From positions 7,882,001 through 7,946,000 of the forward strand of contig NZ_FNSM01000001.1 of assembly GCF_900105415.1 (NCBI RefSeq): DNA of 64,000 nt. The letters are read 5' to 3'. Shown piece by piece: positions 4,262-27,142 of the stretch. The translations under genes and the position numbers were made by a program. The stretch's first letter is position 1, and each line of letters begins with the position of its first letter. The notes under the pieces were generated by a model. The model worked only from the letters and a program-made list of their open reading frames with translations, did not search any database and was not told where the DNA came from. The stretch is from Streptomyces sp. TLI_105. Its GTDB lineage: Bacteria; Actinomycetota; Actinomycetes; Streptomycetales; Streptomycetaceae.

Positions 4262-4339
4262 TGCTCCAACATAGGGACGGTGAGGCCTCGACACCCTCAA
4301 CCCGGAGGTCATGGGCGCGCCGTCGCCTAGCGTGGTGCG
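4262..4339. promoter_or_regulatory. Divergent promoter region srsA / UbiA gene
   Basis: 78 bp separate two divergent start codons. TAGCGT at 4328-4333 ends 6 nt before the GTG at 4340, the spacing of a -10 box for a leaderless transcript. On the other strand TATGTT lies about 10 nt before the srsA ATG. Shared control of the phenolic-lipid and prenyltransferase genes is likely. Assigned by eye. Confidence 0.45.
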
Positions 4340-5304: not shown

Positions 5305-5799
5305 TCAGAGACTGGTGAGGATCTGCGGTGAGAGCACCTTGATCATGGTGTTGGTCCAGCGCATCTGCCGCAGCGTCCGCGGGTGGCAGTCGGAGGACAG
5401 GGCCAGGAGCGGGTCCTGCTTCGTTGCCTGGGCGTACTGGGCGAGCATTTCCCAGTACAGGGAGTTCTCGGCCGCCGCCAGGTGGAGGGAGCGCAGGTCG
5501 CGCAGGAGGAGAAGACCGGGCTCCGGTCGACGCCCCAGCCATTCGGCGGTCTTGTCCCGCACCGTGGAGAGCGGGCCCTCGCCCGGCTTCTCCTCCGCGC
5601 CGCCCCTCAGGTCGAGTCCGTAGGCCCGGGCCGCGTCCGCGATGCGGTCGGCGTGCTCGTCGGACCAGCGGGCGAGATCGGTGGCGACGTGGTGGATCTC
5701 GTGCTCCGTGCGGTGGCGGTCCGCGACGGCCACGAGTTCCTTCTCCAGGTGGCGTTCGCCGTGATGGAGCGCGCGCAGGGTGAGGGTGGTGCCGCTCAT
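5305..5799 (-). CDS. Small helical protein coupled to the molybdoenzyme
   Basis: 164 aa, almost entirely predicted helical, rich in His/Glu/Arg (LHHGERHLEKELVAVADRHR, HEIHHVATDLARWSDEHADR, LLLLRDLRSLHLAAAENSLY). I do not recognise a named family; the pattern recalls four-helix ferritin-like or DUF892-type proteins. Its ATG overlaps the stop of the molybdopterin oxidoreductase by 4 nt, so it is translated with it and may be a dedicated partner or chaperone. A hemerythrin gene lies just upstream in the same direction. Confidence 0.6.
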   Translation of the reverse strand: MSGTTLTLRALHHGERHLEKELVAVADRHRTEHEIHHVATDLARWSDEHADRIADAARAYGLDLRGGAEEKPGEGPLSTVRDKTAEWLGRRPEPGLLLLRDLRSLHLAAAENSLYWEMLAQYAQATKQDPLLALSSDCHPRTLRQMRWTNTMIKVLSPQILTSL

Positions 5800-10769: not shown

Positions 10770-12008
10770 TCACCCGCCTGGCCGGGCGGTCGAAGGCCAC
10801 GGGCCCCGGAAGGCGTCGCCTTCCCCCTGGTGGTGGGTGTGCCCGGGGAGTGCGCCGTCACAGGCGGCGGGGTCGCAGGGGGTGGCCCGGGGCCGCAGGG
10901 GGACGCCGTGGGTGCGCAGCACCTCGCGGACGTCCAGGATCACCGGGAAGACCTCGTGGTTGCGGTCCTCGCCCTGCTCGTCCCACGCCCTCTGTTCCGC
11001 TTCGACGGCCATCCGGTCCTCTGCGAAGACACGCTCGGTGAAACGGCGGATGAACGGCCAGGCCACATGAAGGGCGGCGGGAATCCCGGGCTTCTCGATC
11101 ATGAGCAGGCCATAGGCACGGCACGTACGCTGCTCGGCGTCCTCGGGCACGTACGCTGCCCAGAGCCGGAGGGCCGGGTGGTCGGCGCTCTCCGGAACCA
11201 GGTCGAGCGTCTGGTACGGGTACTCCGTGCGGATGGTCATGACATCGCTGGAGGCCGAGCCGCCGATGCCCTCACCGGCCAGCAGGCCGGCGCTGCGGTT
11301 CCGCTTCCCTCCGGTGTGCGTGAACAGGTACCGGGCTTCCACCGTCCGCCCGTCGGTCCGGTGGTTCAGGAGCTCCGGGTGCAGCTTGCCCACGACGCCA
11401 CGGTGGAGGAACTGGTGGTTCATGTCGAGCAGGTTCTCGTGCATGAAGGAGTAGTGGCAGCGTACGGTCCGGGAGAAGGTCATGGTCCGGTACTTCGGTG
11501 AACCGTGTGCCGGCAGCTCCGGCAACGCGGTCTCCGCCGCCTTCTCCGGGTCCCCGGGGAAGACGAAGACCAGGCCGTACGCCTCGCGAACGGCGTAGCC
11601 ACGCACTCCGCGCGGCGGCCGGCTGTCTCCTTTGGAGAGGTAGGGGATCTGGGAGATGCGGCCGTCACCGCGGTAGGCCCAGGCGTGGTAGCAGCAGCGG
11701 AGCGTCTCGCCCTCCACCACGCCCATGCTCAGAGGGACCTGTCGGTGTGCGCACCGGTCCTCCAGGGCGTGTACGGCGCCGCTCTCACCGCGGTAGAGCG
11801 CGATGCGCTCACCGGCGAACGCGGTCGCGTACGCCCGCCCCCGGCGCACCTTCCTCGACAGCGCGACCGGGTACCAGTAGTCCGGGTTCACGCCCACGCG
11901 CCGTAGGTCGGGAAGGCCCGCGGACCGCGGCGTCGTGCGCCAGGAGCGCTGGACACCGTCGCCGCTGGGGACGGGCGGCGTGGTGCCGCCAGGCTGCGTC
12001 TCGGCCAT
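10770..12008 (-). CDS. Rieske non-heme iron oxygenase (alpha subunit type)
   Basis: 412 aa. The Rieske [2Fe-2S] motif is CAHRQVPLSMG...RCCYH (CxH-16-CxxH) around residues 94-116, followed by a catalytic domain with the 2-His-carboxylate region NLLDMNHQFLHRG near 200. The protein resembles vanillate O-demethylase/pheophorbide oxygenase-type single-component terminal oxygenases, which hydroxylate or demethylate aromatic or other substrates using an external reductase. No reductase or ferredoxin gene is adjacent. ATG 12008 has an AGGGAG sequence 7 nt upstream. It lies 2 kb from the biosynthetic cluster on the opposite strand, so involvement there is possible but unproven. Confidence 0.85.
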   Translation of the reverse strand: MAETQPGGTTPPVPSGDGVQRSWRTTPRSAGLPDLRRVGVNPDYWYPVALSRKVRRGRAYATAFAGERIALYRGESGAVHALEDRCAHRQVPLSMGVVEGETLRCCYHAWAYRGDGRISQIPYLSKGDSRPPRGVRGYAVREAYGLVFVFPGDPEKAAETALPELPAHGSPKYRTMTFSRTVRCHYSFMHENLLDMNHQFLHRGVVGKLHPELLNHRTDGRTVEARYLFTHTGGKRNRSAGLLAGEGIGGSASSDVMTIRTEYPYQTLDLVPESADHPALRLWAAYVPEDAEQRTCRAYGLLMIEKPGIPAALHVAWPFIRRFTERVFAEDRMAVEAEQRAWDEQGEDRNHEVFPVILDVREVLRTHGVPLRPRATPCDPAACDGALPGHTHHQGEGDAFRGPWPSTARPGG

Positions 12009-14076: not shown

Positions 14077-15627
14077 ATGCAGTGCGAGACCCTTGGAACC
14101 ACCCCGGACCTCATCGAGGCCTTCACGGAAGCCGCTCTTCGCGACCCGGAGCGCGCGGCACTCGTCCATGAAGGGCGGGTCGTGACGTACCGCCGGCTGC
14201 ACGAGCTCGTGAACGGCCTCGCGGGGCGGCTCGGGCCGCGGCACGGAGCCATCGCCGTGCCGGCGACGCACACCCCGGAAACCGTTGTCGCGCTGCTCGC
14301 CGTACTGGCGGCCGGAGGCGTCTACTGTCCCGTCGATCCGGCCTTTCCGCCGGCGCGGCAGCAGGACATGGCGTCCGCGGCCGACTGCCGCGCGGTCATC
14401 GACACCGACGCGGCTCCCACCCCCCGACTCGGCCTGCCGGTCATCCGATTAGGCCAGGAGGAGACGGGGCGGGTCACGGCGGCGACCACCGGTGGCCTCG
14501 GGCGGGACATGAGCCCCGAAGCGCCGGCGTACATCCTCTTCACCTCGGGCTCCACCGGCCGACCCAAGCCGGTGGTGACACCGCGCCGGGCCATTTCGGT
14601 CTCCGTGCGCTCGCTCCGTGACCTCTTCTCCCTCACGGAGGAGGACCGGGTGCTCCAGTTCGCCTCGCTCAACTGGGACACCTCACTGGAGGAGATCCTC
14701 CCGACACTGACCGCCGGAGCCACCCTGGTGTTCGACCGCGAGGCGCACTCGGGATCCTTCCCGCGGTTCCTGCGGATGGTCGAGCGCGAACGCGTCAGTG
14801 TCCTCGACCTGCCCACGGCCTTCTGGCACGAGCTCGTGCTCCACCTCGCCGAGGAGGGGACGGCACTTCCGGACTGCGTCCGACTGATGGTGATCGGCGG
14901 GGAGGCCGTCAGCCCCGCCCGACTGGCCGACTGGAGCCGCCTCGACACGGCTCGCATCCGCCTCGTCAACACCTACGGATGCACCGAGACCACCCTGATC
15001 ACCCACGCCGTCGATCTGCACGGACCCGGCGCCCCGGTCCCGGGCTGGGACTGGGCGAGCGGTACCAGGGCGCCGATCGGCCGGCCCCTGGCCCACGTCG
15101 TGGAGGACATCGGAGAGCAGGACGAACTGTTGATCGGCGGCCCGGCGGTGGCCCTCGGCTATCTGGGCATGACCCGGGCCACCGAGGAGGCGTACGCGGT
15201 CGTGGGCGGCGAACGCCGGTTCCGCACCGGAGACCGGGTCGGCAGGACGCCGGACGGCCTCCTCACCCACGAGGGCAGGCTGAACGACGAGATCAAGATC
15301 CGGGGCATCCGTGTCGATCCGGCCGAGGTGGAGGCGCACCTCGCCGGCCACCCGGCGGTGAACGCGGTGGCCGTCACCGGAGCCGTCAGCGTCGGCCGCG
15401 CCGCACTCGTCGCCTATGTGGTGCCCAGGCCGGACACCGAAACGCGGCACCTCGACGGCGATCTGCGGGCCTACCTGCGCGAGCGGGTGCCCGCCCATCT
15501 CGTGCCGAGCCGGATCACCGTCGTCCCGCACCTCGTGCTGACCACGAGCGGCAAGGTCGACAGGAGAGCCTCGCACCACCGTTACGCAACCGTGAACAGG
15601 TCAAAGGAGACCGTTGATGAGCGTTGA
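14077..15627 (+). CDS. Stand-alone NRPS-type adenylation enzyme
   Basis: 516 aa, a complete amino-acid adenylation domain without condensation or carrier domains. Core motifs: A3 LFTSGSTGRPKP, A4 region NWDTSLEEIL (keeps the Asp that pairs with an alpha-amino group), A5 NTYGCTETTL, A7 FRTGDRVGR, A8 GRLNDEIKIRGIRVDPAEVE and A10 TSGKVDRR. It should activate an amino acid as aminoacyl-AMP and load the carrier protein encoded immediately downstream, whose start overlaps its stop. First gene of the cluster; ATG chosen as first in-frame start after the AT-richer promoter region. Substrate not predictable by eye. Confidence 0.9.
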   Translation: MQCETLGTTPDLIEAFTEAALRDPERAALVHEGRVVTYRRLHELVNGLAGRLGPRHGAIAVPATHTPETVVALLAVLAAGGVYCPVDPAFPPARQQDMASAADCRAVIDTDAAPTPRLGLPVIRLGQEETGRVTAATTGGLGRDMSPEAPAYILFTSGSTGRPKPVVTPRRAISVSVRSLRDLFSLTEEDRVLQFASLNWDTSLEEILPTLTAGATLVFDREAHSGSFPRFLRMVERERVSVLDLPTAFWHELVLHLAEEGTALPDCVRLMVIGGEAVSPARLADWSRLDTARIRLVNTYGCTETTLITHAVDLHGPGAPVPGWDWASGTRAPIGRPLAHVVEDIGEQDELLIGGPAVALGYLGMTRATEEAYAVVGGERRFRTGDRVGRTPDGLLTHEGRLNDEIKIRGIRVDPAEVEAHLAGHPAVNAVAVTGAVSVGRAALVAYVVPRPDTETRHLDGDLRAYLRERVPAHLVPSRITVVPHLVLTTSGKVDRRASHHRYATVNRSKETVDER

Positions 15628-15895
15628 CACCACCGCCTCAGCCGCCGGGGACTCGCCCGCCGGCTCCCCTGCCGGTGCCGACACCGAGGGCGTGGTGGCG
15701 ATGTTCCGGCGCGTTCTGGAGACCGAGGACGTCTCGGCGGACTCCGACTTCTTCCTCCTCGGCGGCGACTCGCTGGTCGCGACCCGGGTGCTCAGCGCCA
15801 TCGCCCGCTCCTACGGGGTGGAGCTGACCTTCGAGGACTTCCTCGGTGCTCCGACCCCCGAACAGCTCGCCGAGAAGATCACGGACGCCCGGTGA
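15617..15895 (+). CDS. Free-standing peptidyl/acyl carrier protein
   Basis: 92 aa. A phosphopantetheine-attachment motif FFLLGGDSLVATRV places the carrier Ser at residue 52, followed by the helix III region FEDFLGAPTPEQLAEKI. The first 20 residues are a Ser/Ala/Gly/Pro-rich extension. ATG 15617 follows AAGGAGA at 6 nt and overlaps the adenylation gene; the stop overlaps the next start (GTGA). It should carry the amino acid activated by the upstream enzyme, which then meets the downstream flavoenzyme or ligases. Confidence 0.9.
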   Translation: MSVDTTASAAGDSPAGSPAGADTEGVVAMFRRVLETEDVSADSDFFLLGGDSLVATRVLSAIARSYGVELTFEDFLGAPTPEQLAEKITDAR

Positions 15896-17268
15896 CCGCG
15901 CGCGACGGGGCCCCGGCCGACGGCGCTCCCAGACGTTCCGGAGGCGTCACCAGCGCCGTGGTGGTCGGAGCCGGGTTCGCCGGACTGACGGCCGCGACCG
16001 AACTCGCCGCCGCCGGGATCGACGTGACCGTACTGGAAGCACGCGACCGGGTGGGCGGTCGGGCCCGTGGACTTCAGGTCTCCGACGGGGGGTGGGTGGA
16101 CGCGGGCGCCGCCTACCTGGGGGACCGGCACACGGAGCTCCACTCCCTGATGGCCGAGCTGGACCTCAAGACGACGCCCACCGTCATGCGGGGAGCCAGC
16201 CGCTTCGCCCTCGGGACCGAGGAGACCACCCGGGACGGCCGGTTTCCGCCGCTCGACGCCGTGGCCCTCGGCGACCTCTTCGAGAGGCTCGACGAACTCA
16301 CCGCGACCGTCCGCCCCGATGCCCCGTGGCTCACGCCGGGCGCCGAGGAGCTGGACGCCCTGACCGCCGAGGCATGGGCCGAACAGCACCTCACGCACCC
16401 GGACGCCCGGCTCTTCTTCCCGCTCTTCCTGGGCGAGATGATGGCGGCCGACCCGGCCAGGGTGTCCGTCCTGCACGTGGCCTTCTACCTGCGGTCGGGC
16501 GGTGGACTGCGCTACCTGAACGCCTTCGAGGGCGGCGCCCAGCAGGACCGGATCGACGGGGGCGCCCACCAGGTGTGCGAGCGGCTGGCCGCTCGGCTGG
16601 GGGCCAGGGTGCGGCTCGGGGAGCCGGTCCACGCCGTGCACCAGGACGACGAGGGGGTCACCGTCCGCAGCCCGACGGGGGAGTACCGGGCCGACGTCGC
16701 GGTCATGGCCCTGCCGCCCCTGCCGGCCGACGCCGTCGACCACCGGCCCGAGCCGCCGGCACGCCGGGCGAGTGACCGCACCGCGCGGGGCTGCGCGGTC
16801 AAGGTGCACCTGGTGTACCCGGCACCGGTCTGGCGGGACCACGGTCTGTCGGGGTGGTCGGTGAACGCCGAGGGACCGCTGTTGTCCACCGTGGACGACT
16901 CGCCGGCGGGAGCGGGAGTCGGCGTCCTCACCGGCTTCGTCACGGGCGCCGAGGCCCATCGCTTCGCGGCGCTCGATCCACGGGAGCAGCGCTCGGCGGC
17001 GTTCGAGCAGGCGGCCCGACTGTTCCCGATGCTTCCCGAACCCGTGGGCTTCCACGTGACCGACTGGGTCAACGAGGTGTACAGCAAGGGCTGTTACGCC
17101 GCTCTCTTCGGGCCCGGCGACTGGGTGCGGCACGGCCCGGGTCTTACGGCACCCCACCTGCGGGTGCACTGGGCCGGAACGGAGACCAGCACCGAGTTCT
17201 TCGGACTGATGGAGGGGGCGATCCGTTCCGGCCGCCGGGTGGCAGCGGAGGTCCTCGCCCGCCGGTAG
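15892..17268 (+). CDS. Flavin-containing amine oxidase
   Basis: 458 aa of the monoamine oxidase/L-amino-acid oxidase superfamily: Rossmann motif VVVGAGFAGLTAATELAAAG followed by LEARDRVGGRA, and the C-terminal FAD motif HWAGTETSTEFFGLMEGAI. It oxidises a C-N bond of an amine or amino acid, perhaps tethered to the adjacent carrier protein. GTG 15892 overlaps the carrier protein stop. A hairpin follows the stop, so this is probably the last gene of the first unit. Substrate unknown. Confidence 0.88.
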   Translation: MTARDGAPADGAPRRSGGVTSAVVVGAGFAGLTAATELAAAGIDVTVLEARDRVGGRARGLQVSDGGWVDAGAAYLGDRHTELHSLMAELDLKTTPTVMRGASRFALGTEETTRDGRFPPLDAVALGDLFERLDELTATVRPDAPWLTPGAEELDALTAEAWAEQHLTHPDARLFFPLFLGEMMAADPARVSVLHVAFYLRSGGGLRYLNAFEGGAQQDRIDGGAHQVCERLAARLGARVRLGEPVHAVHQDDEGVTVRSPTGEYRADVAVMALPPLPADAVDHRPEPPARRASDRTARGCAVKVHLVYPAPVWRDHGLSGWSVNAEGPLLSTVDDSPAGAGVGVLTGFVTGAEAHRFAALDPREQRSAAFEQAARLFPMLPEPVGFHVTDWVNEVYSKGCYAALFGPGDWVRHGPGLTAPHLRVHWAGTETSTEFFGLMEGAIRSGRRVAAEVLARR

Positions 17269-17271
17269 GGC

Positions 17272-17310
17272 CGCGGTACGGGCCGCGCTACGGCCGTGGA
17301 CCGTACCGCG
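17272..17310 (+). terminator. Nested stem-loop after the amine oxidase gene
   Basis: CGCGGTAC (17272-17279) pairs with GTACCGCG (17303-17310), enclosing an inner GGCCG/CGGCC hairpin (17281-17295). It starts 4 nt after the stop and separates the two transcription units of the cluster. The rest of the gap to 17672 has no supported gene and should contain the promoter of the second unit. Confidence 0.5.
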
Positions 17311-17672
17311 CGCCGGTGAACCGCTCGCCCCGTCCGCCTCCGCCCTTCCGGCAACCGCCTGCCAGGAACCCGTTCCGCCGGCGCCCGTCACCCCTGCCGG
17401 GTCCCGGCCCCGCATGCACGCGTCCTCCGAGCCGCCGCCGGTCGCCCCCTGCCGGTGGTCGCGCCGTCGCCGCCCGGATCCGCCGACCTCCTTCCCACGA
17501 GCCGATCGCAATGCGTCACGACGCGCCCGCGCTCAGGCCGTGCGCCGCACCCCACGACCGCACGGAAAGACAGCCGAACCACAAGTTCCGCCGAGAACAG
17601 CAAGCCTTCGAACAGTCGCCGGGCCCCGGCCCCACCAGGATCCGTCCCGGCGACGCCCGACGGGAGACCCTC

Positions 17673-19379
17673 ATGAGCGACCACACGTCCATCGCCCCTC
17701 TCGCCGCCAGACAGGGGTTGATGACCGAGCCCACGCTCGGAGCCGGCAACTTCCTCGACCACGCCATCGCCGTCAACCCGAACCGCGCGGTCCCGTACGC
17801 CTACACCCACCGCGTCGACCACCGGGGCGCGGTCGAACTGCGGGGTCACAGCCTGCTCGACATCGCCGCCCTGCGCGACCACTACGCCAAGTGGTACTGG
17901 GCCAACGGCGTCCGGCCCGGCGACCCGGTCGGCGTGGTGGTCCGTGAAGGCCTGGAGCCCCTGCTCCACTTCCTCGCGCTCGCCGCGCTGGGAGCCGTCC
18001 CCGCCCTCGTCAACGACGCCATGCCGCACGAGGTGATGGTGCGCTACCTGAACCACGTGGGCGTCGTGGGAGTGGTCGCGGACGACCCCACGCGTCTGGC
18101 CGCCGCCTACCGCGAGACCCCTCACCGCCGTCCCCGCTTCATCGCCATGGCCGCCGAACTCCAGGCCTTCGACGCCGCGTCCGCGGAGCTGCCCGAGGTC
18201 TACCCGTACCGGCACGCCGCCGACGACGTGGTCGCGCTCATCCACTCCTCCGGGACCACCGGGACGCCGAAGTCCACCAAGCTGGCACACCGCCAGTTCT
18301 GGGACGGCAAGCAGCCGCGCATGGTGCGCTTCCCCGCCGAGAACGACGACCGGCTGATGTCGCTGATGCCGCACACCCACGCGGGCGGACTCAGCTACTT
18401 CCTCACCGCCACCCTGCTCGGCCTGCCGACCGTGGTCATGTCCGACTGGCGGCGTACGGTCGTCGAGCCGGTGATGGAGGCTTTCCAGCCCACCATGGTC
18501 GCCTCCTTCCCCCGCACCTTCGTGGAACTGGCCACCGGCGAACTCCCGGTCAAGGGCGCGGCGAAGGTGCACTCCTGGTTCAACACCGGCGACAGCGCCC
18601 ACTACGGGCACATCCGTCGGCTGGTGCAGCTCGGCGAGCGGCCCGCCGGCCTCGTCAGGCCCTGGCTGCTGCCCAGGGAGAAGGAGGAGCAGCCGCCCCT
18701 GCCCGGCTCGCAGTTCATCGACGGTCTGGGCTCGTCCGAGATGGGCATGGCGCTGTTCGGGCAGATGACCACGCCGGAGAGCGGGCGCGACGACCGCTGT
18801 GTCGGCAAACCCCTGGAGGTGGTGGAGAAGGCCGCGGTGCTCGACGAGGACGGCGAGGAGGTCCCCGACGGCACGGTGGGGCTGCTGGGTGTGATCACGC
18901 CTTCCCGCACCCCCGGATACTGGAACGACGACAGGCTCACCAGCACGTTCGAACGGAACGGCTACTGGCTCACCGGCGACGTGGCCAGGCGTGACGCCGA
19001 GGGACGGTTCTACCACCTCGACCGTACGGTGGACGTCATCGACACCGCGGACGGTCCGGCGTACAGCCTGCCGATCGAGGAGGTACTGCTCGCCGACTGC
19101 GCCACGCTGGTGCAGGACTGCTCGGTGATCGGCGTTCCCGCCGGACCCGGACGAGGTCAACTCCCGCTCGCAGTCGTCCGGTTGCAGGCGGAAGCCGCCG
19201 CGAGCACCGCGGAGGAGGTCCAGGAGGCGGCCAACAAGGCCCTGGTCGCCGCCGGGCTGACGCCGCTGGCCGCGGTGAGCATCGCGCGCACACCGGAGGA
19301 CTTCCCGCTCGGCCCCACCGGAAAGGTGCTCAAGCGAGAGCTCCGGACCCGTTTCGCCACCCTGCTGTCCGGCCGTTAG
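17673..19379 (+). CDS. AMP-dependent acyl ligase (acyl-CoA synthetase family)
   Basis: 568 aa ANL-superfamily enzyme. P-loop-like motif ALIHSSGTTGTPKSTKLAH, a LMPHTHAGGLSYF segment, an SSEMG motif in place of the usual YGxTE (DGLGSSEMGMALFG), YWLTGDVARRDAEGRFY, and the C-terminal GPTGKVLKREL lysine motif. It differs clearly from the cluster's other three adenylating enzymes. It should activate a carboxylic acid for transfer to CoA, a carrier protein or an amine. ATG 17673 is preceded by CGGGAG. First gene of the second unit; 11 nt separate it from the aminomutase gene. Confidence 0.85.
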   Translation: MSDHTSIAPLAARQGLMTEPTLGAGNFLDHAIAVNPNRAVPYAYTHRVDHRGAVELRGHSLLDIAALRDHYAKWYWANGVRPGDPVGVVVREGLEPLLHFLALAALGAVPALVNDAMPHEVMVRYLNHVGVVGVVADDPTRLAAAYRETPHRRPRFIAMAAELQAFDAASAELPEVYPYRHAADDVVALIHSSGTTGTPKSTKLAHRQFWDGKQPRMVRFPAENDDRLMSLMPHTHAGGLSYFLTATLLGLPTVVMSDWRRTVVEPVMEAFQPTMVASFPRTFVELATGELPVKGAAKVHSWFNTGDSAHYGHIRRLVQLGERPAGLVRPWLLPREKEEQPPLPGSQFIDGLGSSEMGMALFGQMTTPESGRDDRCVGKPLEVVEKAAVLDEDGEEVPDGTVGLLGVITPSRTPGYWNDDRLTSTFERNGYWLTGDVARRDAEGRFYHLDRTVDVIDTADGPAYSLPIEEVLLADCATLVQDCSVIGVPAGPGRGQLPLAVVRLQAEAAASTAEEVQEAANKALVAAGLTPLAAVSIARTPEDFPLGPTGKVLKRELRTRFATLLSGR

Positions 19380-19390
19380 GCGGGCCCCGG

Positions 19391-20821
19391 ATGATCCCGC
19401 AGCCGTACCAGTACGCGCGGACCCCGCTGACCGAGCCGGACTGGCGACGGCTGCCGGGCTGGCGCCGTGTCACGGAACGCGAATGGCGCGACGCCCAGTG
19501 GCAGAGGGCCCACTGCGTGAAGAACCTGCGCCAGCTCAAGGCCGTCGTCGGTGACCTGCTCACCGACGACTTCTGCGGCGATCTCGCCGCCGACCAGGCG
19601 GAGTTCGCCACTATGGCGATGCTGATCACCCCGCAGATGCTCAACACCATGGCACCCCGGGCCGCCGTGGAACCGGCAGCGTTCACCGAGGCGTTCCTCG
19701 CCGACCCGGTCCGCCGGTACATGCTGCCGGTACGCTCGGACCGGCACCCGCGGTGGCCGAGCCACCCGAAGGCGGGACGGGACTCGCTGCACGAGGCCGA
19801 CATGTGGGTGGTGGAGGGCCTCACCCACCGCTATCCCAACAAGGTTCTGGCCGAGCTGGTCGCCACCTGCCCGCAGTACTGCGGGCACTGCACCAGGATG
19901 GACCTCGTCGGCACCTCCACCCCCCAGATCACCAAGGCCAGGCTCGCGCTCCGCCCGCGGGACCGGCAGGAGCAGATGCTGGACTACCTCAAGCGGACCC
20001 CCACCGTGCGCGACGTGGTGGTGTCCGGCGGAGACGTCGCCAACGTGCCCTGGCCCCAGCTGGAGGCGTTCCTCATGCGACTCCTCGACCTGGGATCGGT
20101 CCGTGACATCCGCCTGGCCAGCAAGGCCGTGGTCGGCCTGCCCCAGCACTGGCTCCAGCCCGAGGTCGTCGAAGGTGTGGGGCGGGTCGCCTCGGTCGCC
20201 GCCCGACGGGCGGTCAACCTCGCGGTGCACACCCACGCCAACCACGCGCAGTCCGTCACCCCACTGGTCGCCGAGGCCGCCCGGGCCCTCCTCGACGCGG
20301 GCGTCCGGGACGTCCGCAACCAGGGGGTGCTGATGCGCGGGGTCAACGCCACCCCCGAGGACCTGCTGGACCTCTGCTTCGCGCTCCAGGGCGAAGCGGG
20401 CATCCTCCCGTACTACTTCTACCTCTGCGACGTGATACCCCACGCCGAGCACTGGCGGACCCCCCTCCACCAGGCCCAGCGGCTCCAGGAGGCGATCATG
20501 GGATACCTCCCCGGCTACGCCACCCCGCGGATCGTGTGCGACGTACCGCACGTCGGCAAGCGCTGGGTGCACCAGGCCGTCGCCTACGAGCGCGAACGCG
20601 GCATCTCGTACTGGACGAAGAACTACCGGACCGAGCTCGAAGTCCGGCAGTCGCCCGACGCGGGCCTCGAAGACGCGCTGGCCCGGCGCCACCCGTACTA
20701 CGACCCGCTGGACACCCTTCCCGAATCCGGCCGTCGCTGGTGGGCGGAGCGAGCCCCTGCCCAGGACGGACGGACCGGCGCCCCGCACCCCCGACCCACC
20801 GCACCGGAGGTCACCCCGTGA
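19391..20821 (+). CDS. KamA-family radical SAM aminomutase (lysine 2,3-aminomutase-like)
   Basis: 476 aa. The radical-SAM cysteines Cys160, Cys164 and Cys167 are in CPQYCGHCTRMD (CX3CX2C). Compared from memory with clostridial lysine 2,3-aminomutase: Arg169 (carboxylate binding, CTR), Asp347 (LCDVIPHAEHWRTP) and Asp384 (VCDVPHVGK), the pair binding the lysine side-chain amine, are all kept with the same 37-residue spacing. Lys390 is the expected PLP lysine, though the loop is DVPHVGK rather than DAPGGGGK, one residue shorter. The likely reaction is an alpha to beta amino shift of lysine or a similar basic amino acid. The N-terminal 100 residues match family length. Confidence 0.88.
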   Translation: MIPQPYQYARTPLTEPDWRRLPGWRRVTEREWRDAQWQRAHCVKNLRQLKAVVGDLLTDDFCGDLAADQAEFATMAMLITPQMLNTMAPRAAVEPAAFTEAFLADPVRRYMLPVRSDRHPRWPSHPKAGRDSLHEADMWVVEGLTHRYPNKVLAELVATCPQYCGHCTRMDLVGTSTPQITKARLALRPRDRQEQMLDYLKRTPTVRDVVVSGGDVANVPWPQLEAFLMRLLDLGSVRDIRLASKAVVGLPQHWLQPEVVEGVGRVASVAARRAVNLAVHTHANHAQSVTPLVAEAARALLDAGVRDVRNQGVLMRGVNATPEDLLDLCFALQGEAGILPYYFYLCDVIPHAEHWRTPLHQAQRLQEAIMGYLPGYATPRIVCDVPHVGKRWVHQAVAYERERGISYWTKNYRTELEVRQSPDAGLEDALARRHPYYDPLDTLPESGRRWWAERAPAQDGRTGAPHPRPTAPEVTP

Positions 20822-21861
20822 GCCCCTCCCCAGACCGCCCCGCCACCGGCCCGCTGCGCCGGTTGTGCTGGATCTTCCCCGACCGGGAATCGACCCGGAC
20901 GGCCGAGATGTGGCACGCCATGTTCTGGGACCTCTACGCCGAGGCCGCCGAGGACCTGGGCATGAGCTGGACCCGGCATTCCCCCGACGCGGTGACGGTG
21001 GACTGCACGGAACCCGGACGCCCCCGGGTCTACGTGGACGACGAGCCCGTCACACCCCGTGACACCCTCTTCATCACCGCGCTCTACTCGCTGCCGTACC
21101 AGCAGATGGACATCTTCAACCAGTACGCCCTGTGCTCGGTGCTGCAACAGGCCGGCTTCTACCTGCCCTTCCCTCCCGAGGCCTCGCTGATCGGCAACGA
21201 CAAGCTCGCCACCCTGCTCCACCTCGGCGGTTCCCCGGTCCCCCCGATCCCGACCGTCCGCATCGGCACGGGGCGCGACGTGAGCAGGCACCTGTACGAG
21301 GTGGCCCTCGGGAACATGACGTACCCGGCCATCGTCAAGCCGGCCGGCTGGTGCGGCGGCGGCGGCATCAACCTGGCGCGGAGCGCGGGGGACATCCGGG
21401 GCCTGGCCAGCCTCGCGCAGGGCGGCGACACCACGCTCGTGGTCCAGCCGTACCTCGGCGACGGCACGGTCGACCACCGGGTGTACGTGATCGACGGCGA
21501 GCCCCACACGGTCCTGAAGCGGACCCCGCAACCCGGCTCGGCGGTCGCCAACATGAGCCACGGCGGCACCATGGAGTTCACCCCGGTGCCCGAGGAACTG
21601 GCCAAGGCCACCGCCTACTTCGCCGAACGGCTGCCCATCCCGTTCTTCTGCCTCGACTTCCTCCACGACGGACAGCGGTTCTGGTTCTCCGAGCTGGAGC
21701 CCGACGGCGTCATACCCCGCGTCCCCGGAGATCCGGACGGGACGGTCCAACGGGACATCACCCGGGCCCGCTTCGCCGCCTACCGGGACGCCCACGCCAG
21801 GCACCTCGCCGACGCCGACGGCGGAGCGTCCCCGTTCACCTCACCGAAGGAAACGAGTTGA
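20818..21861 (+). CDS. ATP-grasp ligase
   Basis: 347 aa. ATP-grasp features: a GNDKLATLLHLGG segment, the ATP lysine in YPAIVKPAGWCGGGGINLA, LVVQPYLGDGTVDHRVYVID, and the metal-binding end FFCLDFLHDGQRFWFSELEP. ATP-grasp enzymes join a carboxylate (as acyl phosphate) to an amine, so this is a good candidate for amide-bond formation in a cluster without condensation domains. GTG 20818 overlaps the aminomutase stop and its own stop overlaps the next start, so it is tightly coupled. It might ligate the beta-amino acid made by its neighbour; this is inference. Confidence 0.85.
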   Translation: MSPSPDRPATGPLRRLCWIFPDRESTRTAEMWHAMFWDLYAEAAEDLGMSWTRHSPDAVTVDCTEPGRPRVYVDDEPVTPRDTLFITALYSLPYQQMDIFNQYALCSVLQQAGFYLPFPPEASLIGNDKLATLLHLGGSPVPPIPTVRIGTGRDVSRHLYEVALGNMTYPAIVKPAGWCGGGGINLARSAGDIRGLASLAQGGDTTLVVQPYLGDGTVDHRVYVIDGEPHTVLKRTPQPGSAVANMSHGGTMEFTPVPEELAKATAYFAERLPIPFFCLDFLHDGQRFWFSELEPDGVIPRVPGDPDGTVQRDITRARFAAYRDAHARHLADADGGASPFTSPKETS

Positions 21862-23084
21862 CCACGATGTTCTCGCTCACCCCGGAGGCGGCCGAGCCGC
21901 GGCTGCCGGTCGCCCGCAGGACACTGGAACGCCTGCGGCAGGTGCCGGAACTGGCCTCGCGCTACCGCGACTCCGAGGACATCCGTACCCTCGACGGCAT
22001 CGCCGCGCTCCCGCCGCTGCTCAAGGACGACCTCAACGTCGCCCTCGCGCACCTGCAACCGCGCGCCGAGCACGGCGCCACCTGGCTCTTCCAGAGCGGC
22101 GGCAGCACCGGCGCGCCCAAACTGGGTCACGCGCCCACCGGCTTCTACATGTCCGGGGTGCACGCCCACTGGCAGCCACTGGACCGCGAGGACGTCTTCG
22201 TCAACGCCTGGGGTGCCGGCCGCATGTGGGGCGCGCACTTCCTGGTCGCCGCCCTGGCCGACCTCTCCGGCTGCCAGGTGATCGCGCTGGGCTCGGTCGC
22301 CAAGGACGAGTACGCCGAGTGGCTGGCCTTCTTCGCGGCACGCAAGGTGACGGCGATCGGCGGCACCCCGAGCGTGCTGAGGCTCTGGTTCGCCCACGCC
22401 CGAGCCACCGGCCTGGAACTGCCGGACCTGCGCAAGGTGCTCTGGCTCGGCGAGGCGTGGCAGCCGCAGCTGGAGGAGGACATGGCCGCGGTCGCGCCGG
22501 CGGCCCGGCGCTGGGGCATGTTCGGAAGCACCGAGACCTGGGTGGTCGGGACCAACACGCCCCACTGCCCCGCGGACACGTTCCACACCCTGCCCGACCA
22601 ACTGGTCCACGTGGGCGAGGACCAGCTCCTGGACTTCACCACTCTCAACCCTGAGATGCTCAACCCGGTACTGCGCTACCGCACCGGGGACGCGGGACGC
22701 CTGGTGACGTGCCCGTGCGGCCGGCCCGGGCGGGCCATGCAGGTGCTCGGCCGCCGCGACAGCGTGGTCCAGGTCCGGGGCCTGGGCCTGCACGTCGACG
22801 AGGTGATCACGCGGGTGGAGCGGGAGGCGGGTGTCTCGCGCGCCCAGGTGGTGATCTCCGAGACCGGCGGGCGCGCCGGATCCGTGGAGGTGCTGCTGCT
22901 CACCGCCCCGGGCGCGACCGTGGACGCCGAACGGCTCCGCAAGGAACTCCTGACCGAGACCTTCACCCTGAGCACCGCCTTCCAGCACGATCCGGAGAAC
23001 TTCCGCGTGCGCCCCGTCGCGGACCTGGTCAGCAACGACCGGACCGGCAAGACCTCCGGCCTCGTGGTGCTGGAGGAGCGGTGA
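21858..23084 (+). CDS. PaaK-like adenylate-forming enzyme (first copy)
   Basis: 408 aa resembling phenylacetate-CoA ligase (coenzyme F390 synthetase family): TWLFQSGGSTGAPKLGHAP, WGMFGSTETWVVGTNTP, RYRTGDAGRLVTCPCGRPGR with the zinc-type CPCG element, then GRRDSVVQVRGLGLHVDEV and a C-terminal DRTGKTSGLVVL. TTG 21858 is chosen because GAAGGA lies 6 nt upstream and its last base begins the previous stop; ATG 21867 is the alternative. It should activate a carboxylate as an adenylate. Paired with a second PaaK-like gene at 25278. Confidence 0.82.
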   Translation: MTTMFSLTPEAAEPRLPVARRTLERLRQVPELASRYRDSEDIRTLDGIAALPPLLKDDLNVALAHLQPRAEHGATWLFQSGGSTGAPKLGHAPTGFYMSGVHAHWQPLDREDVFVNAWGAGRMWGAHFLVAALADLSGCQVIALGSVAKDEYAEWLAFFAARKVTAIGGTPSVLRLWFAHARATGLELPDLRKVLWLGEAWQPQLEEDMAAVAPAARRWGMFGSTETWVVGTNTPHCPADTFHTLPDQLVHVGEDQLLDFTTLNPEMLNPVLRYRTGDAGRLVTCPCGRPGRAMQVLGRRDSVVQVRGLGLHVDEVITRVEREAGVSRAQVVISETGGRAGSVEVLLLTAPGATVDAERLRKELLTETFTLSTAFQHDPENFRVRPVADLVSNDRTGKTSGLVVLEER

Positions 23085-24382
23085 AGCTCTCGCGGCCGGT
23101 GTCCCTGGGCTCCGAGTTCAACCGTTTCTGGATCGGCCAGTCGGTGAGCACCGTCGGTGACCGCATCACCGTCTTCGTGGTGCCGACCGTGATGATCTTC
23201 GCCCTGGACGCCTCCGCGTTCCAGGTGGGCATCGTGGCCATGGCGCAGTACCTGGGCATACCCCTCCTCGGTCCGCTGGCCGGAGTCCTGGTGGACCGGT
23301 GGGACAACCGCCGCACCCTGCTCGTCTGCGACCTCGCCCGGCTGGCGGCGGTGGCCGTCATCCCCCTGGCGTACTGGCAGGGCTGGCTCTCCACCCCCCT
23401 GCTGTTCGCCTGCGTCGCGGTGATCAGCGGCGCCACGATCTTCTTCACCGTCGGCTACCTGGTCGCCGTCCCCGCCGTGGTGCCGAAGGACGGCCTGGTA
23501 CGCGCCTACTCCCGGCTGGAAGGCAGCCGCTCGGTCTCCGAGGTCTCCGGCCCGTCCCTGGCCGCCGGCCTCTACAGCGCCCTGGGCGTCGCCGCCCTGC
23601 TCGTCGACGCCGCCAGCTACCTGATCTCCGCCCTGTGCATCCGCTCCATGCGGCCCTGGGGCGAGCGGACCGCCGCCGAGGGATCGGTGTGGCAGCGGCT
23701 GACGGCGGGCTTCCGACTGAACTGGTCCGACCCGGTGCTGCGCCGGGTGGTGGTGGCGGCCGTGACGCTCAACTGCGGCGGCCCCGTCTTCGTCACCGTG
23801 CTCCCGATCCTCGCCTATCAGGGACTCGGCGTCTCCGTCGGGGTCTTCGGCGCCGCCATGTCCGTGGCAGCGGTGGGCGCCCTGGCCGGAGCGGCCCTCG
23901 CGCCGAAGGCCGGTGAACGGCTGGGGACGGGACGGATGCTGGCCTGGGCGCTGCTCCTGCACTGCCTGGTGGGCCTCGGCGTGCTCGCGGCACCCGCCCT
24001 CCCGGCCGGCGCCGTGATCGCCGTGACCATGGGCTGCTACGGCTTCTTCATGTCCTTCATCAACGTGAGCAGCGCGCCCATCCGGCAGTCCCGGATGCCC
24101 GCACGGAACCAAGGGGTGATGCACGCGGCCTTCCGCACCGCGACCTGGGGTGTGATCCCTCTGGCCGCCTTGGCCGGAGGCCTGGCGGTCAGCCTGCTCA
24201 CCGGCCCGCTCGGCATACTGGACGCGGCCCGGGTCACCATGGCCGGGGGCACGCTGCTCGCGGCCTGCTCCTTCCTGCCGGCGCTGCGGATCCAGCGCCT
24301 GCTGGACGAGGCCGAACGGCGACGGACGCCGGAGGCGGACGGCGGGAACGCCGAACCGGCTCTGGCCGAGGGCACCTCGTGA
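23081..24382 (+). CDS. MFS transporter (putative product exporter)
   Basis: 433 aa with about twelve membrane helices, an N-terminal FWIGQSVSTVGDRITVFVVP helix and the loop 2-3 signature PLAGVLVDRWDNRRTLL. It resembles the enterobactin-exporter/MFS_3 group used in natural-product clusters. GTG 23081 overlaps the upstream stop; its stop overlaps the SDR start by 4 nt. Likely efflux of, or self-resistance to, the cluster product. Confidence 0.87.
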   Translation: MKLSRPVSLGSEFNRFWIGQSVSTVGDRITVFVVPTVMIFALDASAFQVGIVAMAQYLGIPLLGPLAGVLVDRWDNRRTLLVCDLARLAAVAVIPLAYWQGWLSTPLLFACVAVISGATIFFTVGYLVAVPAVVPKDGLVRAYSRLEGSRSVSEVSGPSLAAGLYSALGVAALLVDAASYLISALCIRSMRPWGERTAAEGSVWQRLTAGFRLNWSDPVLRRVVVAAVTLNCGGPVFVTVLPILAYQGLGVSVGVFGAAMSVAAVGALAGAALAPKAGERLGTGRMLAWALLLHCLVGLGVLAAPALPAGAVIAVTMGCYGFFMSFINVSSAPIRQSRMPARNQGVMHAAFRTATWGVIPLAALAGGLAVSLLTGPLGILDAARVTMAGGTLLAACSFLPALRIQRLLDEAERRRTPEADGGNAEPALAEGTS

Positions 24383-25278
24383 CCGCGGCGGACCGCGAAC
24401 CTCAGGTCGTGCTGATCACCGGAACGTCCTCGGGCATCGGCAAGGCCACGGCGATCGCCGCGGCACGGGCCGGCTTCGCCACGGTCGCCACCCTGCGCGA
24501 GCCCGGCCGTGCCGGGGCCCTGCGGGAGGAGGCCGACCGGGCCGGCGTCCCCCTGGACATCCGCAGACTGGACGTCACCGACCCCGACTCCGTCGCCCGC
24601 TGCGTCGACGGCGTGCACCAGGCGTACGGACGACTGGACGCCGTGGTCAACAACGCCGGCATCTCCAACTTCGACCCGACCCTGGAGATGTCCACCACGG
24701 AAGCACTGCGGGCCAACCTGGAGGTGAACTTCTTCGGGGTGGTCGAGGTGAGCCGGGCCGCGATGCCGCTGCTCCGGGCCGCCCAGGGGCGCCTTGTCAC
24801 CATCGGCAGCGTCCACGGAGTCGTCGGGCAGCCCTTCAACGAGGCCTACTGCGCGGCCAAGTTCGCCGTCGAAGGGTTCATGGAGAGCCTGGCCCCGGTG
24901 GCGGAGGCGCACGGGGTGAAGGTGTCCGTCGTGGTCCCCGGTTTCGTCAGGGACACCTCGTTCGGGATCTTCCCCGACATCAACCGCAAGACCATCGAGG
25001 CCGCCTCCGGTCCCTACGGCCCGACCTTCGCCGACTACGTCGACTGGGTCGTCCACCACGGATGGGAGGGCGCCGGGCAGGACGCGTCCGAGGTGGCGGA
25101 GGTCGTGGTGCGGACGCTGCGGGCCGAGCGACCGGCCTTCCGCGTTCCCACCCATCCCTGGGCGGCCGCCTACCTGGAGAACAAGCTGACCGACCGTGAC
25201 GGCTCCGTCGTGCAGGAACTCGCACGTACGTGGATCGGGCGCCGGCAGGAATCCGACGACACAGAGCAGGAGAGGTAG
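24379..25278 (+). CDS. Short-chain dehydrogenase/reductase
   Basis: 299 aa classical SDR: cofactor motif TGTSSGIG, NNAGISNFDPTLEM, and the catalytic Ser-Tyr-Lys in IGSVHGVVG and EAYCAAKFAVEGF; the glycine pattern and TLREPGR suggest NADP(H). It would reduce or oxidise a carbonyl/alcohol in the pathway. GTG start overlaps the MFS stop; the stop TAG shares its last base with the next GTG. Substrate unknown. Confidence 0.88.
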   Translation: MTAADREPQVVLITGTSSGIGKATAIAAARAGFATVATLREPGRAGALREEADRAGVPLDIRRLDVTDPDSVARCVDGVHQAYGRLDAVVNNAGISNFDPTLEMSTTEALRANLEVNFFGVVEVSRAAMPLLRAAQGRLVTIGSVHGVVGQPFNEAYCAAKFAVEGFMESLAPVAEAHGVKVSVVVPGFVRDTSFGIFPDINRKTIEAASGPYGPTFADYVDWVVHHGWEGAGQDASEVAEVVVRTLRAERPAFRVPTHPWAAAYLENKLTDRDGSVVQELARTWIGRRQESDDTEQER

Positions 25279-26534
25279 TGCCCGCCAAATCCCTTCAAGA
25301 ACTGGTCGACTTCGTCCGCACCCACTCACCCTTCTACGCGGAGGCGTACCGGGACGTGCCACGGACGGTCTCGCACCTCACCCAGCTTCCCGTCATCGAC
25401 CACGCGGAGTTCTGGGCGGCGAACACCTGGCCCGACAACCGGGTGCTGACCGGCCCACTGACCGACGCCGGGGTCTACAGGACCGGCGGCACCACCGGCG
25501 TGCCCAAGCTGTCCGTCTGGTCGCGGTCGGAGCACGCCGACTCGGTCACCGCGTTCGGCGCCGGCATCGTGCGGGCCGGGCTGAAGCCGGGGCACCGGGT
25601 GGCCAACCTCTTCTGGGCCGGCGAACTGTACGGCGGGATGCTCTACATCGAACACGCCCTGCACGCGGCCCCCGTGGAGAACGTCCGCCTGCCCGTCGGT
25701 GCCGGCGCCCCCAACGAATTCGTCGCCGACCTGATCGACGACTTCGGTGTGAACGTCCTCGCCGGCGTCCCGATGAAGCTGGCCGCCGTGGCGGAATGCC
25801 TCGTCCGGCGAGGCCGGACCGCCGACTCGGTGGAACTGCTGCTCTTCGGCGGCGACCTGCTCTTCACCGATCTGCGTCCCATCCTGCTGCGGGCCTTCCC
25901 CAAGGCGGCCATCGCCTCGGTCGGTTACGCCTCCATCGACGCGGGGCTCGTCGGGCGTCCCGTACCCGGGGAGGACGTACGGGTGCACGAGGCGTTCCCG
26001 CACCGGACGGTGGTGGAACTCGTGGACGACGTCACCGACGAGCCGATCACCACACCGGGGGTGCCGGGCCGCGTCATGGTCACCAACCTGTTCCGCACCC
26101 TCATGCCGGTCATCAGGTTTCCGACGGGCGACCGCGGTGAGTGGGTCGACCCGCAGTGCCGACAGTTCCGTCTCCTGGGCCGGTCCATGGAGGGCGGACG
26201 GGTCGGCACGGTCTCGATGCCGATCGAGGACGTCCGCGCGGTGCTCGTGGAGGCGGACCCGGACCGGTACATCGCCGGCATGCAGATGGTGCAGCGCCGC
26301 TGGGACGGACGGGACGGTCTGATCCTGCGCCTGGGGTACGTCGAAGAGCCCCCGGCGGACCTGAGCAGCCGGCTCGTCGAGGCGGTCTACGCGGCCCGGC
26401 CGCTCTTCCCCGCGGAGGTCGCGGACGGCGCCATCCACGAGCTGGGCATCGAGTGGGTGCCGCGCTCCGAGCTGGTCACCAACCCTCGGACGGGCAAGCT
26501 CAGGCAGGTGGTGGACGAGCGCCCGGCCGACTGA
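25278..26534 (+). CDS. PaaK-like adenylate-forming enzyme (second copy)
   Basis: 418 aa. Motifs: VYRTGGTTGVPKLSVWSR (P-loop-like), ANLFWAGELYGGMLYIEH, ELLLFGGDLLFTDLRP, RFPTGDRGEWVD, and C-terminal VTNPRTGKLRQVV. It is a divergent relative of the gene at 21858, without the CPCG zinc element. GTG 25278 is preceded by GGAGAGG. As last gene of the unit it may activate a second acid building block or act as a transferase-like partner. It ends at 26534; no hairpin is obvious. Confidence 0.8.
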   Translation: MPAKSLQELVDFVRTHSPFYAEAYRDVPRTVSHLTQLPVIDHAEFWAANTWPDNRVLTGPLTDAGVYRTGGTTGVPKLSVWSRSEHADSVTAFGAGIVRAGLKPGHRVANLFWAGELYGGMLYIEHALHAAPVENVRLPVGAGAPNEFVADLIDDFGVNVLAGVPMKLAAVAECLVRRGRTADSVELLLFGGDLLFTDLRPILLRAFPKAAIASVGYASIDAGLVGRPVPGEDVRVHEAFPHRTVVELVDDVTDEPITTPGVPGRVMVTNLFRTLMPVIRFPTGDRGEWVDPQCRQFRLLGRSMEGGRVGTVSMPIEDVRAVLVEADPDRYIAGMQMVQRRWDGRDGLILRLGYVEEPPADLSSRLVEAVYAARPLFPAEVADGAIHELGIEWVPRSELVTNPRTGKLRQVVDERPAD

Positions 26535-26698: not shown

Positions 26699-27142
26699 TC
26701 ACCCGCGCTGTGGCTGCGCCCTGCCGGCGAGCATCACGCTCTGTCCGCGGAACTCCGCCACGACCGTCCCGTCCGCCCGGCGGACCGTCACGTCGTAGAT
26801 CCCGTTGCGGCCCGAGCGCGTCCGCTCCACGGCCTCGGCGAGCAGTTCGTCGTCCACCGCGGCCGGCAGCAGGAAGGTGACCTGCGCGGACTGCGCCACG
26901 GTGACAGGCCCGTAGCCGTTGCAGGCGTAGGCGAACGCCGCGTCGGCGAAGAGGAAGAGGAAACCTCCGTGAGCCATGCCATGGCCGTTCACCATGTCCT
27001 CGCCCACCCGCATGCGCATCAACGCCCGGCCCGGTGCGACCTCCTCCAGGGCGATGCCCAGGGTCCGACACGTGCGGTCCCGCTCGTACAGCTCAGCGAT
27101 CCCGGCCGGTGCGTCATCCGGCACGCCGGTGTACAGGCCCAC
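26699..27142 (-). CDS. PaaI-type hot-dog thioesterase
   Basis: 147 aa single hot-dog domain with the family motif GHGMAHGGFLFLFADAAFAY and RMRVGEDMVNGHG. In phenylacetate degradation PaaI hydrolyses misrouted acyl-CoA thioesters. The GTG at 27142 has GGAGGG 8 nt upstream; a longer upstream frame lacks family similarity. It is convergent with the biosynthetic cluster, which has two PaaK-like genes but no thioesterase of its own, so a hydrolytic or editing role there is possible. Confidence 0.85.
   Translation of the reverse strand: MGLYTGVPDDAPAGIAELYERDRTCRTLGIALEEVAPGRALMRMRVGEDMVNGHGMAHGGFLFLFADAAFAYACNGYGPVTVAQSAQVTFLLPAAVDDELLAEAVERTRSGRNGIYDVTVRRADGTVVAEFRGQSVMLAGRAQPQRG

Follow-up and report, generated by a model that had tools for sequence, protein, structure and literature searches.

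What product is made by a compact gene cluster that combines a lysine 2,3-aminomutase-like enzyme with an ATP-grasp protein and four adenylating enzymes? The cluster considered here occupies positions 14077–26534 of a 64,000-nucleotide stretch of DNA from Streptomyces sp. TLI_105 (contig NZ_FNSM01000001.1, positions 7,882,001 to 7,946,000), the whole of which is referred to as the window. On comparison of sequences, it is likely that the cluster directs the synthesis of a small metabolite whose lysine-derived core carries, or passes through, a nitrogen–nitrogen (N–N) bond made with nitrite. The central chemistry is probably N–N bond formation or diazotization, because the protein designated AvaA6L groups with the CreM/AvaA6/Tri17 enzymes and because genes for nitrite supply recur inside some related clusters.

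A gene caller based on sequence composition, together with Pfam and NCBIfam, confirmed ten open reading frames (ORFs) across this region, all on the forward strand. Their domain types agree with those given in a preliminary description of the locus, PaaK2 falling just under its cut-off. They are listed here with an eleventh conserved gene on the opposite strand.

14077–15627, +, stand-alone adenylation (A) domain of the nonribosomal peptide synthetase (NRPS) type (AMP-binding, 202 bits)
15695–15895, +, stand-alone peptidyl carrier protein with the GGDS serine (PP-binding, 59 bits)
15892–17268, +, flavin amine oxidase of the monoamine oxidase (MAO)/putrescine oxidase type (Amino_oxidase, 235 bits)
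17673–19379, +, AvaA6L, an ANL-superfamily enzyme of the CreM/AvaA6/Tri17 group (NCBIfam AvaA6, 356 bits)
19391–20821, +, KamA-family radical S-adenosylmethionine (SAM) enzyme with CPQYCGHC (TIGR03820, 163 bits; 2a5h, 147 bits)
20818–21861, +, RimK/glutathione-synthetase-like ATP-grasp ligase (GSH-S_ATP, 34 bits)
21867–23084, +, PaaK-like AMP-forming ligase 1, PaaK1 (AMP-binding, 52 bits)
23081–24382, +, major facilitator superfamily (MFS) exporter (MFS_1, 101 bits)
24379–25278, +, short-chain dehydrogenase/reductase, SDR (adh_short, 163 bits)
25278–26534, +, PaaK-like AMP-forming ligase 2, PaaK2 (AMP-binding, 28.1 bits, just under the 29.9 cut-off)
26699–27142, −, 4HBT hotdog thioesterase (4HBT, 40 bits)

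PaaK2 also matched the phenylacetate-CoA ligase 2y4o (38 bits), and the ATP-grasp protein gave weak profile matches, of at most 29 bits, to RimK-like and other ATP-grasp structures. The nine junctions of the ten-gene set comprise four 4-nt overlaps, one 1-nt overlap and gaps of 5, 11, 67 and 404 nt; the earlier statement that most junctions are 4-nt overlaps was too generous. As first described, no condensation or ketosynthase domain was detected in the ten proteins with Pfam and NCBIfam.

Relationship of AvaA6L to nitrite-using enzymes

AvaA6L (568 aa) matched the NCBIfam model for AvaA6, the 3-aminoavenalumate diazotase, over nearly its full length. Its score was below the equivalog cut-off of that model (356 versus 975 bits), which marks it as a relative of AvaA6 and not AvaA6 itself. 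Against the PDB, the four top sequences scored 298, 285, 265 and 265 bits and the next 76. According to PMC11705231, the two chains at 265 bits (9bq0 and 8tf7) belong to Tri17, which uses nitrite in the biosynthesis of triacsin.

In a tree of 39 rows, the window protein and 15 orthologues formed one clade (support 100/100), which was sister (96/89; 22 rows) to six cre-like rows (L092–L097). A group of 33 rows, 17 of them CreM-like and 16 from the window clade, stood apart from six ligases of the organism's own genome with support of 97/98. Several outgroup branches of this tree are long, its midpoint root serves for drawing only and its rows include no characterized enzyme; the link of AvaA6L to Tri17 is based on the PDB scores, not on the tree. 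The pattern GDxxHxxHI was found in 37 of 46 orthologues, in 14 of 17 CreM-like proteins and in none of the six outgroup proteins. As a family signature it is only a hint, because no P-loop was seen in two of the six outgroup ORFs.

By these sequence comparisons AvaA6L groups with CreM, AvaA6 and Tri17 rather than with ordinary acyl-CoA ligases, and it is proposed to be an ATP- and nitrite-dependent N–N bond former. It is the protein first named 'acyl ligase'. The view that bond formation must depend on the ATP-grasp protein or the adenylating enzymes is not supported, as it takes all four of the latter to be acyl activators and one of them groups with nitrite-using N–N formers.

The AvaA6L rows of the tree derive from Streptomycetaceae, Streptosporangiaceae, Micromonosporaceae, Catenulisporaceae and Nocardioidaceae. 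Of 200 genomes sampled from the window's family, 37 (its own genome counted) encoded a full-length protein of at least 70% identity; among 394 genomes drawn from the whole class the number was 3, all from the window's genus. It is apparent that AvaA6L is common among Streptomycetaceae relatives and patchy elsewhere.

Conservation of the gene set and its two modules

Homologous clusters were located by a profile scan of genome contigs with an ATP-grasp alignment (the window protein and 16 of 120 listed relatives), which yielded 53 loci. Three of these (L051–L053) were removed before counting; beside an ATP-grasp protein of 43–47% identity they held only A-domain matches of 26% and 31% and one PaaK match of 36%. 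For the remaining 50 homologous loci, presence of a gene was defined as a tblastn match of at least 44% identity, some matches being truncated by the ends of the loci. The ATP-grasp gene is present in all 50 by selection. PaaK1 and the MFS gene were each found in 48, SDR in 47, AvaA6L in 44, the A domain, carrier protein and amine oxidase in 43 each, PaaK2 in 41, KamA in 39 and 4HBT in 35. With the 4HBT gene next to the ten-gene set in the window, the absence of a thioesterase, as first reported, does not hold for the immediate neighbourhood.

All ten genes, in the same order and on one strand, were observed in 33 of the 50 loci, and some of the missing genes reflect contig ends (e.g. L039 and L040). 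Other genes of the window, 4HBT excepted, gave scattered matches of 27–47% in no more than six loci each. Conservation of the ten genes is therefore not due to chance. The original idea of a biosynthetic cluster that is coherent and conserved and that involves a beta-amino acid is supported. The closest cluster among the compared loci is that of Streptomyces litmocidini, at 91–97% identity per protein.

The genes fall into two modules. Module I comprises the A domain, carrier protein, amine oxidase, AvaA6L and KamA, and module II extends from the ATP-grasp gene onward. Six loci (L031, L033, L041, L044, L045 and L048) are rearranged into two blocks split between these modules, and KamA accompanies the module I block in L031, L045 and L048. 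Two units had been proposed previously; the division into two stands, but its border was placed at the 404-bp gap, whereas the relatives break between KamA and the ATP-grasp gene.

Module I occurs without a relative of the ATP-grasp gene in three genomes from the same family as the window (G034, G052 and G142; loci L109, L110 and L111), where the search, which covered the ATP-grasp gene alone among those of module II, gave one match of 26 bits. The 11 loci that lack KamA represent 10 genomes (L042 and L044 being one strain by title), and in all 10 both KamA (best match 66–82% identical) and AvaA6L (73–82%) were found; L040, a 3-kb contig with no AvaA6L, lies outside this comparison. Dependence is therefore one-way, module I occurring without the ATP-grasp gene and the reverse not being seen in the tested genomes. 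The possibility that the two units are not conserved together is not borne out, inasmuch as each of the 10 tested genomes with KamA or AvaA6L missing from its cluster has both in another place.

Several further features of these loci were recorded. An MDMPI_N (mycothiol-dependent isomerase-like) gene goes with module I in several lineages: it is present in all three module-I-only loci (L109, 15788–16378; L110, 12110–12739; L111, from 19421) and in L155 (13919–14518). It is seemingly fused to the SDR ORF in L041, L045 and L157, and has no match in the window. Its product may act on a reactive intermediate, and the presence of such a gene would fit a reactive electrophile. Type I polyketide synthase genes follow module I in G052 (L110/L115), where the module I product might be a polyketide starter. 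Regulators of one family (F11; BTAD/NB-ARC, SARP type, annotated in L050 only, e.g. 3449–5245) occur in 21 of the 53 loci, and none was noted beside the window's cluster. In the window itself, a Rieske oxygenase with a VanA_C domain (10770–12008, −) lies upstream of the cluster and gave no match in the homologous loci, and a SAM riboswitch was detected at 478–619 (−; 66.9 bits).

Nitrite-supply genes in related clusters

Genes of the nitrosuccinate type, CreE and CreD, were found beside several relatives of AvaA6L. Among the cre-like sister loci, CreE is present in all six and CreD in five. Of the other CreM-like loci, L104 and L108 hold both genes and L102 holds CreD only, and an AvaA6L relative of 52% identity adjoins CreD and CreE (L160). 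CreE was recognized indirectly, as a NAD_binding_9 (Pfam) protein of the kind found beside an above-cut-off nitrosuccinate lyase in L104.

Both genes also accompany AvaA6L itself. In L111, genes for a CreE-type flavoprotein and a lyase of the CreD type (612 bits against a cut-off of 650) separate AvaA6L from the A domain. In L153, a longer stretch of the L033 cluster, the A domain is followed in turn by the carrier protein, the oxidase, AvaA6L, CreE and CreD (580 bits). A CreD score of about 600 bits is not decisive alone, as is shown by the lyase of the window genome that was read as PcaB (see below), and the calls in these two loci depend on the adjoining CreE-type flavoprotein. CreE and CreD were not found in the window cluster, nor in 49 of the 50 homologous loci as fetched.

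A different set of genes was observed inside the clusters of L014, L021 and L022, which hold a NasC-type nitrate reductase (743 bits against a cut-off of 1100, scored in L014), a NirB-like reductase and a NarK-family transporter (285 against 312). Five more (L016, L018, L032, L034 and L049) hold the NarK-type gene alone, 77–81% identical to the L014 copy. In total, in-cluster nitrite supply was found in 9 of the 50 loci and in one of the three module-I-only loci. The occurrence of nitrate reductase or nitrate/nitrite transporter genes within some of the clusters suggests that nitrogen assimilation and secondary metabolism are directly linked.

No nitrite-source gene was found in the window cluster. 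The window gene at 5796–8171 was considered as a source and rejected, its nearest model being that of the formate dehydrogenase alpha subunit (452 bits, cut-off 666) with NasC at 406 bits; it matches only molybdopterin enzymes, at 34–36%, in six loci. Elsewhere in the 8.88-Mb genome, two nitrate reductase candidates scored 828 and 761 bits, both under the 1100 cut-off, and the first is 66% identical to the NasC of L014. A lyase match of 561 bits (cut-off 650) might have indicated a nitrosuccinate pathway, but was read as PcaB because the neighbouring genes, judged by size, fit a pca operon.

Two other candidate sources were observed among the relatives. In three Kitasatospora loci (L024, L025 and L027) a long molybdopterin oxidoreductase gene lies downstream of PaaK2, and in L027 it is fused to a CysJ-like reductase. 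It is probably an assimilatory nitrate reductase (annotated in L027 only), and was left out of the cluster counts. In two Hamadaea clusters a DUF3050/haem-oxygenase-like protein is encoded beside AvaA6L (L044, 15357, −; L054, 9150–9932), assigned by Pfam in L054 only, the L044 copy being 82% identical. It could be an N-oxygenase or provide another route to nitrite.

Proposed supply, loading and oxidation of beta-lysine

The PDB comparison placed KamA with the lysine 2,3-aminomutase 2a5h. The pattern C, C, C, R, D, D, K was kept in all 43 rows of the alignment; six of the seven positions lie within the 2a5h alignment, and the lysine, just past its printed end, was placed by eye. In lysine 2,3-aminomutases, residues of this kind are the radical SAM cysteines (CxxxCxxC), an Arg and an Asp pair that bind the substrate, and the lysine that binds pyridoxal phosphate.

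The genomes with a kamA-less cluster were informative in this regard. In seven of the ten, the KamA found elsewhere adjoins a gene for L-erythro-3,5-diaminohexanoate dehydrogenase (KDD). Relatives of KamD, KamE and KAL were also present in six of these seven, which were fetched at length, and beside another KamA in the genome of L029 (L151). All four relatives, of KDD, KamE, KamD and KAL, were found in the seven fetched loci (L146–L152), and in L149 all four score above their NCBIfam cut-offs. The KamA copies linked to lysine fermentation are 66–70% identical to that of the window (67% for L149). In the remaining three genomes, KamA lies with module I at a separate place (L154–L156). KamA is thus probably a true lysine 2,3-aminomutase that makes beta-lysine. 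We infer that beta-lysine is required, because every genome with a kamA-less cluster has KamA elsewhere, and that such clusters borrow the catabolic copy.

The specificity positions of the A domain, in GrsA numbering, read D-T-E-D-V-G-T-L-I. After a first reading by hand, the code was extracted from aligned sequences of 46 A domains (that of the window included), of which 30 are identical and 16 differ at one or two positions. The six kamA-less clusters from which an A domain was obtained have the same code (L033, L041 and L054) or one residue different (L036, L044 and L050). Two acidic residues in the code would suit a basic amino acid, and the A domain is proposed to load beta-lysine. The GGDS motif is present in all 41 carrier proteins of the called family.

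The best PDB matches of the amine oxidase are monoamine oxidases (271–208 bits), and 45 of its 46 homologues contain a GCY motif, which presumably resembles the surroundings of the cysteine that binds flavin adenine dinucleotide in MAO. A motif for the second MAO cage position was found in none of the 46, and was dropped.

Proposed pathway and alternative explanations

Sequence comparison provided the family groupings, the gene conservation, the co-clustered nitrite genes of some relatives and the context of KamA; from these we infer the A-domain substrate, where oxidation takes place, which atom accepts nitrite, the order of steps and the product. KamA would convert L-lysine to beta-lysine, which the A domain would attach to the stand-alone carrier protein. 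An amine of the tethered residue would then be oxidized by the MAO-type flavoenzyme; if this is, most simply, the terminal amine, the 3-amine could cyclize to give a five-membered imine ring. AvaA6L would activate nitrite with ATP and transfer it to a substrate nitrogen, giving an N-nitroso, diazo or derived heterocyclic product. Alternatively, nitrosation could precede oxidation, or a pyrazolone-like ring could close after N–N formation. Module II, with its two PaaK ligases, ATP-grasp protein, SDR and the thioesterase, would activate and join another unit or tailor the product, which the MFS protein would export. In this strain the nitrite would be either produced from nitrate by enzymes encoded elsewhere in the genome or taken from the environment.

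A more specific version of this scheme is put forward tentatively, its chances falling somewhat short of even. The natural substrate of AvaA6L would be an aliphatic, carrier-bound nitrogen derived from beta-lysine (a free amine, cyclic imine or enamine), to be turned into an N-nitroso, diazo or N–N heterocyclic warhead, and different lineages would fuel the same pathway by CreE/CreD, by an in-cluster nitrate reductase or by imported nitrate or nitrite. The in vitro acceptance of pyrrolidines and piperidines by Tri17 (PMC11705231) makes it plausible that nitrite is received by an aliphatic ring nitrogen.

A number of observations weigh against the pathway. AvaA6L is so far under the AvaA6 cut-off that its substrate, and even its reaction, may differ. 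Its two best PDB matches, 9xb8 (298 bits) and 8ztz (285 bits), are labelled 'Fatty-acid-CoA ligase FadD' and 'Putative AMP-binding enzyme'. KamA is below the TIGR03820 cut-off for lysine 2,3-aminomutase (163 versus 525 bits); the KamA copy beside the L149 lysine-fermentation operon likewise scores only 163 bits. The literature search turned up no experimentally tested A domain with the code D-T-E-D-V-G-T-L-I, and no product of the cluster was found. As regards nitrite, 41 of the 50 loci have no CreE, CreD, NasC, NirB-like or NarK gene inside the cluster (tblastn, E values up to 1e-15), 8 of the 17 CreM-like loci as fetched have neither CreE nor CreD, and no convincing CreE or CreD was found in the organism's own genome. 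Moreover, the CreD, NasC, NirB-like and NarK calls in homologous clusters are all under their NCBIfam cut-offs, and CreE matches no NCBIfam model.

Some of these points would be expected if AvaA6L had left nitrite chemistry and become an ordinary acyl activator in a cluster that makes a beta-lysine amide. This is considered unlikely. The membership of AvaA6L in the acyl-ligase superfamily, the label of its top PDB match and the 41 loci with no nitrite-supply gene agree with it, but the missing genes are not diagnostic, because 72 of 134 ava-like clusters lack them too (PMC10777205). In addition, in-cluster nitrite supply takes three forms (CreE/CreD, NasC/NarK-type and NarK-type alone), and the sister clade and the 52%-identical relative carry CreE and mostly CreD, which argues against an enzyme that has abandoned nitrite. 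An improbable role for diazotization is the mere removal of nitrogen, known from the pathways to avenalumic and p-coumaric acids, with a final product that has no N–N bond. AvaA6 and CmaA6 act in this manner (PMC10777205), and AvaA6 is the best NCBIfam match of AvaA6L. However, the sole reductase-type gene of the set, SDR, belongs to module II, whose ATP-grasp gene is absent from three module-I genomes, and the loss of an aliphatic diazonium would seem a wasteful route from lysine.

PaaK ligases often use aromatic acids, and AvaA6L might diazotize an aromatic amine delivered by way of module II and its PaaK-like ligases, beta-lysine being merely an amide partner. Most of the characterized diazotases covered by one review do use arylamines (PMC11705231). 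Yet the module I that bears AvaA6L lacks an ATP-grasp relative in all three module-I-only genomes, in which the ATP-grasp gene was the part of module II searched for, and where module II lies elsewhere AvaA6L keeps its place near the A domain, carrier protein and oxidase, making the aromatic route quite unlikely. The formation of an N–N bond on a lysine-derived core remains the preferred interpretation. If it is correct, a natural aliphatic, carrier-bound substrate would widen enzymatic N–N chemistry, the natural substrates of the CreM-type enzymes described in that review being arylamines or a hydrazone (PMC11705231). The compound may be reactive, so that ordinary isolation could miss it.

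Comparison with known systems

The lysine fermentation operon (kdd, kamD, kamE, kal) is catabolic and has only kamA in common with the window cluster, although its KamA copies may serve clusters with no kamA of their own. In streptothricin and viomycin biosynthesis beta-lysine is made by a KamA-family enzyme, as is proposed here. The present cluster differs from those systems in that its ten proteins have no condensation domain and include an N–N-type enzyme and an amine oxidase.

Negamycin, from Kitasatospora purpeofusca, has beta-lysine, N–N chemistry and an ATP-grasp ligase in common with the cluster as interpreted here, but its biosynthesis uses the haem enzyme NegJ, N-methylation and lysine hydroxylation (PMC12154649), whereas all ten window genes are assigned otherwise. 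K. purpeofusca NRRL B-1817 also carries a cluster of the ten-gene type (L035). With K. purpeofusca among the hosts, negamycin was considered as the product, but it is not supported in view of that description of its pathway and of the presence of the ten-gene set in several other genera. A further locus, L161, lies on plasmid unnamed3 of Streptomyces sp. SAT1 (NZ_CP016083.1:732108-757257). It encodes a KamA 65% identical to that of the window, a lysine N6-monooxygenase, a cupin plus methionyl-tRNA-synthetase-like protein, a methyltransferase, and PGM1-type and ATP-grasp ligases. We take this gene set to be negamycin-like and the cupin plus methionyl-tRNA-synthetase-like protein to be of the hydrazine synthetase type; L161 would use an N–N route unlike the NegJ route reported for negamycin.

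The azaserine cluster combines N–N chemistry with NRPS parts and forms its N–N bond via hydrazinoacetic acid synthesis (PMC10445470), the genes for which are absent from the conserved set. CreM, AvaA6, CmaA6 and Tri17, the ATP-dependent N–N-forming enzymes of the cremeomycin, avenalumic acid, p-coumaric acid and triacsin pathways, are full-length homologues of AvaA6L and belong to its group, and CreE/CreD-type genes are also found with AvaA6L in L111 and L153. In contrast to those systems, the conserved set has no aromatic-amine genes, polyketide synthase or hydrazine synthetase, and has instead the lysine-type A domain, carrier protein and MAO-type oxidase.

Within the open-access literature, no paper was found, by title and start of abstract, that joins a lysine aminomutase to CreM-type chemistry, subscription journals lying mostly outside that search. 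The initial impression of an unrecognized combination is consistent with this, no characterized counterpart having been found in the literature searched. The cluster is real and conserved, and is probably uncharacterized. What is new, on the evidence of its sequences, is the pairing of a CreM-type enzyme with a predicted carrier-bound beta-lysine, together with putative nitrite sources that differ from one lineage to another.

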